Shown: one piece after another, positions 9,508 to 23,768 of the stretch
How the letters are laid out: each line of letters begins with the position of its first letter
How positions within the stretch are numbered: position 1 is the stretch's first letter
DNA from: an uncultured beta proteobacterium
GTDB lineage: Bacteria; Pseudomonadota; Gammaproteobacteria; Burkholderiales; SG8-41
Assembly: GCA_903889565.1 (NCBI GenBank)
Contig: CAISYC010000058.1
Coordinates: forward strand, 1 to 64,000
DNA: 64,000 nucleotides
Direction: 5' to 3'
Program-made: the position numbers and the translations under genes
The notes under the pieces: model-generated
Seen by the model: only the letters and a program-made list of their open reading frames with translations
What the model was told of the DNA's origin: nothing
Databases searched by the model: none

Positions 9508-11124
9508 TCAGGCGTCGATGCGGCGCGACACCGCGCGCGTCTGGCCGAAGGTCGGCACATAGACCGAATGCGTGCCGGGACCGCCGGCAACGACGATGCC
9601 GATCTCCGCGGGCGTCGGCGAAATCGGCACCGGCGTATCCGGAGAAAAACCGCCCAACTCCTTGCTCCGCGTGTGTTCGGCGCGATCGTAATCCTTGCGC
9701 GCAAAGCGGTGCGCCGGCATTTTCGACTGCTCCCACAGTTGCTGTTTGATGTCGTCCTTCGAATAGCCGCCGCGACTCAACACCTCGGCATGTTCCGGCG
9801 ACAGAATGAGCCAAGGCTCACCCGCGAAGTGATAATCGTTGCTGGTCGGATACACCAGGCTCGTGGCAAGCACACGCAGCAGATCGACCGCATCCTTCGA
9901 ATGCGTATTGAGATTGAGCGTGCCGGCGGCGCCGACCACGGTCACCACGCTGTCGCCGGCGGCAAAGCCACGCTCGACGTGCAGCGGCGTCCACGGATTG
10001 GCGGCCTCGTTTTCGGCGCAGCAGAAGCTGTACTTGCCGGGCTGGCCGTGGGTGGCGCGGTCCATCTCGCCGGGCAGCGCGCCGCCGATGTTCTGCAGAA
10101 TCAGCCGCAGCGCGCGCCCCAGCGTGGCGTTGGCGCGGTGGCCCTGACCGAGACAGTTGAGTCCGGCGTTGACGCCGAGCGCGGCGGCGGCGGGACCGTT
10201 GACGATGATCCACGGCGTAGCCGAATTGGTGGTCGCCTGAATGCCCTGAATATTGAGTTGCTGATCGGCCACCGCCTCGACCGCCGCGATCAGCGCCGCC
10301 AAATAGGCCGGCCGGCAGCCGGCCATCACCGCATTGATGGCGATGCGTTCCACCGTGGCGGCGCCGAAGCCCGGCGCAACGTGGGCGACGATTTCATCAC
10401 GCCCGCGTTTGCTCGCGGCAAGCATGGCGGTGACACGCTCCGGCGTCGGCGGAATCAGCGGCAGGCCGTCCGACCAGCGGCGTTGTTCGCAAGCCTCGTT
10501 GAAGGCGATCAGATCGGCCGGCAGTGCGATCTCGACGGCGCGCGTTTCTGCTTTGTTCGCAGTTACCGCGGCCGCGCCGGTTTTGTCGGCGCCACCCAGC
10601 GCAAGGCGCACGACTTCGTGAACCAGCGTTTCGGCGAGTTCGCGCACCTGCGCGCGCGTGCGCACGCCGAAGGGATGCGGCATCAGCGCGATCGGCAGAT
10701 CGGCGCAGCCCAGCGCCTTTAACTGCGAACGGCCGAGAGTGACGAAGGCCGTCGAACAAACGACCATTGCGGTAAGCCCCAGCTTCGCAGCCTGCACACT
10801 GTCGTGGACACTCCACGACGTGCAGCCCCCTCAGTCGCCGGAACCGGTGATGACGAGATCGCATTCCTTCTGGATGTCGGCGAAGACTTCGCGCGAGGCC
10901 GACACCGAGGCGGTCGGCTTGCGGTGGCGCACGACGCGCGCGACACCATGCTTCGCCATCAGCAGTTCGGCGAGATCGTCGGCGAGCAGACTGAAATTCG
11001 GTTTCGAGTTGTCGATGAAAGCAACCACCTTGCCCTGCAGGGTGGCGAGCGGACGGAAGGACTGCGCTGCCGCGGCAACACCGGCCGGCGCGACGGGATC
11101 GAGTATGTTTTGCATGGCGTTCAT
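9508..11124 (-). CDS. UGSC-family selenoprotein (in-frame TGA = Sec98)
   Basis: One 538-codon gene, not two. ATG 11124 has a strong ggaggag and opens a 97-codon frame that meets TGA at 10833-10831. The same frame continues for 440 codons to a TGA stop at 9508. Across the TGA the product reads GSGD-U-GGCTSWSVHDS, matching the redox signature and following WSxHD of the UGSC (seleno)protein family. Before it stand VVAFIDNSKPNFSLLADDL and CDLVITG, typical of the family N-terminus. Residues about 98-170 finish that domain (TAFVTLG, LPHPFG-like MPHPFG). The last 350 residues form a second domain that I cannot assign, rich in Gly, Ala and Asn with a CC pair. A hairpin immediately 3' of the TGA fits a SECIS. 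No sel genes are in the window. The alternative is a nonsense-mutated gene, which is less likely. Confidence 0.9.
10792..10825 (-). promoter_or_regulatory. Putative bacterial SECIS hairpin of the UGSC gene
   Basis: In the mRNA, five bases after the UGA, CUGCAC-GUCGUGGA pairs perfectly with UCCACGAC-(AGU bulge)-GUGCAG. This gives 14 base pairs with a GUG apical loop that begins 20 nt after the UGA. Bacterial SECIS elements recognised by SelB typically have the loop 16-37 nt from the UGA, a G in the first two loop positions and often a bulge. All three hold here. The hairpin lies within coding sequence. Confidence 0.88.
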
Positions 11125-22817: not shown

Positions 22818-23588
22818 CTATTCGAACAGACGCTCGGGCATCGGCAGCCCGGCGAAATCGGCCGGCGTCAACGGCCTGTCCGGCTTGATGTCCATGCGTT
22901 CGAGCACCGCAATCAACTGGCGGCAATGCTGCCCGGAATGCCAGGTCACGCGCTCGAATACCTTGTGCGCGGCCGTATCGCCGTAATAGGTTTTGAGTAC
23001 GCGCGAGAGCGAACGGTCGTCGAGGCCATCCCACCAGGCCTCGAATTGCCGCCACACGCCGGCGCCGTAACGCGCGACATCGTCGCCGGACAGCATGCTG
23101 TCCGGCGGCTCGTTGTCGGCGATTCCGACCGAGTATTCAGCGCCATTCCACGTCTCAAGGAATGATTCGCCGATTCTGAAGACGTGATAGCACAGTGTTC
23201 TGATGAGTCGCGGGCGATGCGGGATCACGCGTTCACGAAAGCCCTCGGCGGTGAACTGCCGCGCATAGCGCTGGCCGGCGGCGAAAATCATTTCGTATTT
23301 TTTGTAAAGCTGCTCCGGCGACAGACGATCGGCGCCTGGCATTGGCAACCCGGCGAACTTCGCGAACGGATCGAGCATCTGACCGAACGCGTACTGGTCG
23401 CCCTTCGCCAGCACCGGCACCTTGCGCAGGCCGTATTTATTGAGCAGGAGTTCGCGGCCGCCGGCGTCGTTGAGGACGTCGATGACCACCATGTCTACAC
23501 CGTTTTTCGAAAGAAACTCTTTCGTTCGAAGGCAGCTGCTTCACCCCGGCTGGGTGAAGTAGAGGAACTTGTCGGGGGGGAATTCCAT
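22818..23588 (-). CDS. Glutaredoxin-like/DinB fusion selenoprotein (in-frame TGA = Sec16)
   Basis: 256 residues if TGA 23543-23541 is read as Sec. ATG 23588 has aggag eight bases upstream and the product begins MEFPPDKFLYFTQPG-U-SSC. This is a thioredoxin-fold first strand leading into a U-x-x-C redox motif (Sec16, Cys19), then LRTKEFLSKNGVDMVVIDVL and the cis-Pro segment RKVPVLAKGD. Residues about 95-250 resemble a DinB/DUF664 four-helix bundle (TWHSGQHCRQL holds two possible metal His). Without Sec decoding the gene would be called from the internal ATG 23492, losing the active site. It is probably a cytoplasmic thiol-dependent reductase or transferase. It is convergent with LysR and divergent from the VOC gene. 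Confidence 0.92.
23508..23524 (-). promoter_or_regulatory. Putative bacterial SECIS hairpin of the glutaredoxin-like gene
   Basis: Seventeen bases after the UGA, the mRNA can form CGAAAG-AGUUU-CUUUCG: a perfect 6-bp stem whose loop begins 23 nt from the UGA and has G as its second base. These values fall inside the bacterial SECIS range. The lower stem is irregular. The sequence also encodes RTKEFLSK, so it is constrained by coding too. Confidence 0.8.
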
Positions 23589-23768
23589 TTTATATGCTCC
23601 TGCGCAGTGAACTTCGCTCGCGTCCGGATGCGGCAACGGCGCGGCCGACCGCCATTATGCGCGCTTGCCGGAAAAAATGCGGCGCGTCTCCGAACAGGCG
23701 CGCACCTTGTTCCCCTGCGTTTCACATCACTCTAAAATGGCCCCTTCGCATTCCGACCGGAGAACAAC

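Follow-up and report, generated by a model that had tools for sequence, protein, structure and literature searches.

The locus raises the question of whether an in-frame TGA near the start of a gene ends translation or is read as selenocysteine (Sec). The gene lies on the reverse strand of the window, by which is meant the whole stretch of 64,000 nucleotides that was analysed. An initial annotation had described it as a fusion of glutaredoxin with a DinB-like domain (Grx-DinB), in which TGA took the place of the first active-site cysteine. The start codon, the TGA and the TAG stop were verified in the sequence at the positions claimed, and the good ribosome-binding site reported there was found as AGGAG; the coordinates of all features are collected in Table 1.

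Table 1. Predicted features of the Grx-DinB locus and of a second Sec candidate in the window
Feature	Position	Strand	Details
Grx-DinB, predicted selenoprotein gene	22818..23588	(-)	256 residues with U16; TAG stop 22818-22820
TGA, very probably read as selenocysteine	23541..23543	(-)	residue 16, first position of UxxC motif
AGGAG, likely ribosome-binding site	23597..23601	(-)	8 nt 5' of ATG 23588
SECIS-like hairpin CGAAAGA-GUU-UCUUUCG	23508..23524	(-)	begins 16 nt past TGA
Glutaredoxin domain, residues 9-65	23394..23564	(-)	PF00462 45.6 bits, cut-off 22.9; U16, C19, P58
Cys19, presumed resolving cysteine of UxxC	23532..23534	(-)	62/62 Sec, 15/15 Cys forms
DinB-like helical domain, residues 127-225	22914..23210	(-)	PF12867 DinB_2, 22.5 bits
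His135, putative DinB metal ligand	23184..23186	(-)	62/62 Sec, 15/15 Cys forms
H217-S-G-Q-H221, putative HxxxH metal ligands	22926..22940	(-)	H217 58/62, H221 59/62 Sec; both 15/15 Cys
UGSC-family selenoprotein candidate	9508-11124	(-)	TGA 10831-10833, GDUGGC, strong hairpin, GUG loop

The reading frame and its homologues

Translation with TGA as U placed QPGUSSC near the N-terminus of the 256-residue product. Without recoding, the mechanical listing of open reading frames offered only a 224-aa ORF from Met 23492, for the DinB part; such a listing truncates Grx-DinB genes. Homologues were taken from the fetched loci as distinct, full-length rows, those that were truncated or had identical last 150 residues being dropped. 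The 77 rows that remained are a part of the family and order matches, yet include all eight stop-free rows of the order sample. Residue 16 was encoded by TGA in 62 of the 77 and by TGC or TGT in 15, although these rows are kin by descent and the counts are not independent. The cysteine of the homologues therefore aligned with the TGA, as had been claimed. U16, C19 and P58 were present in all 62 Sec rows, while Cys19, Pro58 and His135 were kept in 77/77. Homologues that begin at the internal Met, or that have neither Cys nor Sec at the site, would have refuted the initial annotation, and this was not borne out: all 15 Cys rows were open through it, with Cys at residue 16, and the four that had an annotated CDS all began upstream of that position. 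The Cys forms were annotated as plain glutaredoxin domain-containing or DinB family proteins.

Within the family of the window's genome, a match was found in 67 of 74 genomes (E ≤ 0.001). Among the matches listed, each one spanning residue 16 had a single internal TGA. Ten listed matches that fell short of residue 16 were pieces, of which eight were stop-free, one contained TAG and one had TGA elsewhere; the last two both came from one genome (G005). A paralogue in the window's own genome (G000:C59:48195-48959) was 53% identical and likewise had one internal TGA. Matches were scarce further afield, occurring in 2 of 398 genomes of a phylum sample (E ≤ 1e-8), 2 of 369 of a class sample and 36 of 399 of an order sample, the window's genome being included in each case. 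The order sample provided 53 rows that covered the site. TGA was present in 45 of them, drawn from 28 genomes, and the eight rows without a stop came from eight other genomes, so that no genome had both.

Further Cys forms were found on plasmids of Caballeronia, Variovorax, Roseomonas and Rhizobium (13 records matched, 7 read) and in the genome G583, where no selB match was seen at E ≤ 1e-60. A search of the order of G583 produced no further forms; nothing was gained because that order holds one genome. A phage origin of Grx-DinB was considered and dropped, the phage collection having given no match. One record (L003, CAMDDY010000236.1) is titled Bordetella parapertussis; its Grx-DinB clusters with betaproteobacterial metagenome-assembled genomes of the window's family, and the title looks wrong.

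The hairpin and the decoding machinery

A hairpin of 6 bp with G in its loop had been noted downstream of the TGA. CGAAAG was indeed found to start on the 17th nucleotide past the TGA, and in most relatives the stem was 7 bp with a GUU loop. When two single-base variants of the pattern in Table 1 were permitted, 61 of the 62 TGA rows had the hairpin exactly 16 nt past that codon, and none of the 15 Cys rows had it. The available part of one source (PMC13188914) gives the bacterial SECIS consensus as a loop of 3-9 nt, a stem of 4-16 bp, G in the first two loop positions, a spacing of 16-37 nt and a minimum free energy (MFE) of -7.5 or below. The hairpin fits this model with its GUU loop, 7 bp and 23 nt from UGA to loop; its MFE was -9.8 kcal/mol when 45 nt were folded, but -6.6 for 36 nt.

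Conservation of the hairpin exceeded what the protein requires. Across the 61 hairpin rows, the synonymous entropy of codons 23-27 (K E F L S) was 0.21, 0, 0, 0 and 0 of the possible value; these were the five lowest of 49 protein-conserved codon columns, the next being 0.43. Leu26 was CTT and Ser27 was TCG in 61/61, while the Cys rows used mixed codons for Lys, Glu, Phe and Leu across the same stretch. The 17-mer, with up to two mismatches, was found twice in the 5.04-Mb genome, each time in a Grx-DinB gene, and a reversed-pattern control gave no hit. Judged by codon usage, the hairpin is a signal independent of coding.

Folding energy was rejected as evidence. Relative to dinucleotide shuffles, the z-score of the window's hairpin was -0.11 (36 nt) or -0.41 (45 nt), which is ordinary; five Sec rows ranged from -0.11 (the window) to -2.30, with two of the four non-window Sec rows tested at -2.2 to -2.3, and seven Cys rows from -0.85 to +0.82. 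Covariation was also set aside because the stem hardly varies, and only the pair just outside it does (G-C, A-U or mismatch). The signals above chance are codon constraint, confinement to TGA forms and uniqueness in the genome, and not energy.

The initial annotation had taken two Sec sites in the window to indicate a working Sec system, and the machinery was present in the assembly. selB scored 432 bits by profile (cut-off 242) and tRNA-Sec 75.5 bits (gathering threshold 47), while selA was recognised from the ORF adjoining selB, its homologues adjoining selB in other genomes also. selD was found by profile, with an in-frame TGA of its own. SelD is thus itself a predicted selenoprotein (UGCK; L050, G000:C64:1542-2465), with a hairpin CCAGC-GUU-GCUGG, the loop of which is 20 nt past the UGA. 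The second Sec site in the window was judged plausible: the encoded protein of 538 aa matched PF24696 at residues 7-174 and scored 110.9 bits with NF041046, below the cut-off of 125, while the approximately 360 residues past the UGSC domain had no Pfam match at E ≤ 1e-5. The SelD and UGSC transcripts fold in like manner, into hairpins with a three-base loop beginning GU.

The apparent stop in the Grx-DinB gene is very probably decoded as Sec, a reading strongly supported by comparison of these sequences. That the TGA is instead a genuine stop, with a functional protein beginning at Met 23492 and lacking the glutaredoxin active site, can hardly be credited: although the shorter ORF is listed mechanically and a start there would retain the DinB part, the PG (mostly QPG) just before the TGA is conserved, with synonymous changes, the Cys forms continue through the site uninterrupted, TAA and TAG are absent inside the site-covering matches among those listed, and the hairpin codons are frozen in the TGA forms only.

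A tree was made from 63 rows (the 77 less 14 near-copies). The Cys rows grouped together, with one Sec row (L048) among them, and the well-supported branches needed at least two changes of state, where an earlier tree of 57 rows had needed only one. The row in question, on a long branch, comes from a single-contig genome (L048:1492-2256 (-), genome G212) that has selB. Its TGA is at the same place and is followed by a different hairpin, with an AAG loop that is off consensus; it was the only Sec row without the common hairpin. This suggests either a second gain of Sec at L048 or a Sec ancestor with subsequent losses.

Linkage to selA and selB

A link to the sel genes, which the initial annotation had not anticipated, came to light next. 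A selB match was obtained for 62 of the 67 family genomes carrying Grx-DinB. In 48 of the 62, a Grx-DinB copy was on the selB contig, always upstream on the same strand and 1.6-10 kb away; in the other 14 the two were on separate contigs. In at least one of these genomes (G064) the two genes are truly apart, since 63 kb of contig upstream of selB contains no copy. Five family genomes had selB without Grx-DinB, and five had Grx-DinB without a selB match. The latter included G060, which is 99% complete and has two TGA-bearing Grx-DinB genes with no selB match at E ≤ 1e-60, reflecting an assembly gap or a loss.

Thirteen sel loci were read, and 12 of them had the gene order grxDinB-selA-selB. Seven of the 13 were from the window's family, picked because a copy was known to lie on the selB contig, and five were from nine order-level Grx-DinB loci (families f266 and f261); the thirteenth, from G212, was selA-selB without Grx-DinB beside it. 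In f266, the selA match started 8 nt past the grxDinB stop, while several other genes separated grxDinB from selA in the sel locus of the window's genome. In 9 of the 12 linked loci, selB was followed by a gene for a thioredoxin-reductase-like flavoprotein. The flavoprotein of the window's genome (L011:454-1356 (-)) has a CADC motif and lies between selB and selC; the other 11 linked loci include 8 with such a gene after selB. It scored below the cut-off for thioredoxin reductase (237 vs 343 bits), and it could be a partner specific to Grx-DinB.

The window copy is situated outside the sel locus, on a different contig from selB. Its surroundings were compared over ten loci, two of which (L008 and L128) are the same place and several of which have short flanks, and its neighbours were not conserved, since only TctC-type genes and one isochorismatase match of 27% identity recurred. 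The neighbourhood of the window-type copy was therefore dropped as a clue to function.

It can be argued that Grx-DinB is a genuine selenoprotein but that the paralogue beside selA-selB merely hitchhikes there, with no role in selenium metabolism; the chances of this seem to us about even. There is a precedent, in that the available text of PMC1794560 describes fdhA adjoining selA-selB-selC in Sec-decoding alpha-, beta- and some gammaproteobacteria. No formate dehydrogenase was recognised among the sel-locus ORFs that were read by eye. Hitchhiking is also consistent with the remaining four of the nine order-level loci, where no selA or selB match was in reach, with the separate contigs of selB and the window copy, and with the occurrence of Cys forms outside the lineage. 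Against it, the linked copy has the same position and orientation in three GTDB families, with the short gap to selA in f266, and the flavin disulfide reductase gene recurs after selB.

Domains, proposed mechanism and known relatives

An AlphaFold2 model of Grx-DinB, made with 30 rows, had a mean pLDDT of 93.8. Foldseek matched its N-terminus to 3zit, a small thioredoxin/glutaredoxin-like protein (TM 0.88 by target), and its C-terminus to DinB/YfiT proteins, for which 6iz2 (TM 0.79 by target), 2f22 and 3di5 gave a probability of 1.00, E-values of 1.2e-3 to 3.8e-3 and TM by target of 0.69-0.79. Lower matches included 2nsf, the mycothiol-dependent maleylpyruvate isomerase (TM 0.44 by target), and 1rxq (YfiT). 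The DinB_2 profile itself just misses the Pfam cut-off (22.5 vs 24.8 bits, E = 1.7e-4). A canonical glutathione transferase had the top Foldseek E-value (8agq, 7.8e-4) but was rejected, as its TM was about 0.3 and its rmsd above 10 Å, and the C-terminus fits DinB.

The three-His pattern (H135/H217/H221) was present in most rows, one Sec group being without H217. This group comprised divergent Sec paralogues from two genomes (L052-L055, from G031 and G054; G054 has four Grx-DinB matches). These were 21-24% identical to the window protein and kept the TGA and hairpin; His217 was lost in 4/4 and His221 in 3/4. On account of these losses, the Sec/Cys redox site is read as the probable constant function, and the DinB thiol/metal site as a partner altered in some paralogues. 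A SECIS core of 17 nt that is nearly frozen among paralogues of such low identity also lends itself well to the study of SelB recognition.

From these features we infer Sec insertion, redox chemistry, metal and thiol binding, and the kind of substrate, as follows. SelB with Sec-tRNA(Sec) would bind the hairpin 16 nt past the UGA, and Sec would be inserted at residue 16. The product would have a glutaredoxin fold with a U-S-S-C site, followed by a helical domain of the DinB/YfiT type in which His...HxxxH is the putative metal site. The selenolate would attack a disulfide, a mixed thiol-disulfide or an Se-S bond, and Cys19 would resolve the adduct as a selenenylsulfide. Glutathione is the expected low-molecular-weight thiol in this bacterial group. 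The active site could be regenerated by a low-molecular-weight thiol bound close to the metal site of the DinB domain, in the manner of the bacillithiol and mycothiol transferases, or alternatively by the flavin disulfide reductase whose gene is in the sel locus. In DinB-type thiol transferases, the metal is held by His residues and the low-molecular-weight thiol is bound nearby, according to the available text of PMC10950700. The most likely function is that of a Sec-based thiol-disulfide (or selenide) oxidoreductase combined with a metal/thiol-binding DinB domain. The reading as a whole, i.e., a selenoprotein made through SelB and hairpin decoding, in which a Sec/Cys oxidoreductase is joined to a putative DinB metal site, is given a probability of roughly 0.85.

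The DinB domain might instead be the catalytic part, acting as an S-transferase or isomerase in the manner of mycothiol-dependent maleylpyruvate isomerase or BstA, with the Sec-glutaredoxin only recharging or delivering the thiol. The fold matches, with 2nsf and 1rxq among them, conservation of His135/217/221 in most rows, and the catabolic-looking neighbours of the Roseomonas Cys copy (amidase and isochorismatase genes) are in keeping with this. However, U16 and C19 persist in 62/62 Sec rows while one group has lost HxxxH, and the window-type copy has no conserved neighbourhood; a catalytic DinB domain is therefore possible but unlikely.

The oxidoreductase reading can be extended to the sel-linked copy. 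Thioredoxin is reported, in the part of PMC8538045 available, to act in selenite reduction for selenoprotein synthesis, and a selenium-handling role for the linked copy is therefore a reasonable possibility. In this extension, selenium handling would be the dedicated task of Grx-DinB, which would in this way supply the pathway that makes it: its Sec/Cys pair, with glutathione or the sel-locus flavin disulfide reductase to recharge it, would reduce selenium (e.g., glutathione-bound Se) or carry it to a Sec-containing SelD, and Sec would have been gained a second time, with a different hairpin, in the G212 lineage. We consider this scheme speculative and, taken whole, improbable. If true, the loop would reinforce itself and so maintain the Sec trait in these bacteria, where no linked formate dehydrogenase was recognised.

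Grx-DinB looks like an undescribed selenoprotein family. No NCBIfam model matched it at its cut-off. The Uxx-star model NF041212 scored 28 bits (cut-off 66), and the other Uxx-star models scored lower. A table from 2026 lists 119 families of prokaryotic selenoproteins, Sec glutaredoxins and Uxx-star among them, and no DinB fusion was seen in the available part of it (PMC13188914). Searches on combinations of selenoprotein, glutaredoxin and DinB, covering titles and the starts of abstracts and mostly papers free of subscription, returned nothing on Grx-DinB and no measurement of Sec. In one Burkholderiales lineage the family is common (67 of the 74 genomes searched), and it provides naturally occurring Sec/Cys pairs. 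How selenium reaches SelD can be approached in a new way through the copy that lies a short way upstream of selA-selB.

Its closest known counterparts are the Sec-containing glutaredoxins (PF00462), such as that of Clostridium oremlandii, which share the Grx domain and UxxC active site; Sec glutaredoxin is entered as experimentally verified in Table 1 of PMC13188914, as far as its accessible text goes. In the same text these are small oxidoreductases, whereas here a DinB domain is added and a paralogue usually stands in the sel locus. The Uxx-star proteins (NF041212, NF041211, NF041114 and NF047338) resemble it in a glutaredoxin-like N-terminus, with weak HMM similarity, but their models have 70-71 positions, against a two-domain protein of 256 aa. 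With the DinB/YfiT superfamily (BstA, mycothiol S-transferase and mycothiol-dependent maleylpyruvate isomerase) it shares the helical fold and, in most rows, residues that fit the three-His metal-site pattern described in the accessible part of PMC10950700, and it differs in the N-terminal Sec-glutaredoxin fused to that fold. The thiol would also differ, glutathione being expected here in place of the bacillithiol or mycothiol of the DinB/YfiT transferases. As in the selA-selB-selC arrangement with fdhA, a selenoprotein gene is found beside the sel genes, but the neighbour is grx-dinB rather than the fdhA described in the consulted part of PMC1794560, and this is a case of Sec machinery accompanied by a gene other than formate dehydrogenase. 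Grx-DinB is, in these terms, a new selenoprotein family composed of known parts.
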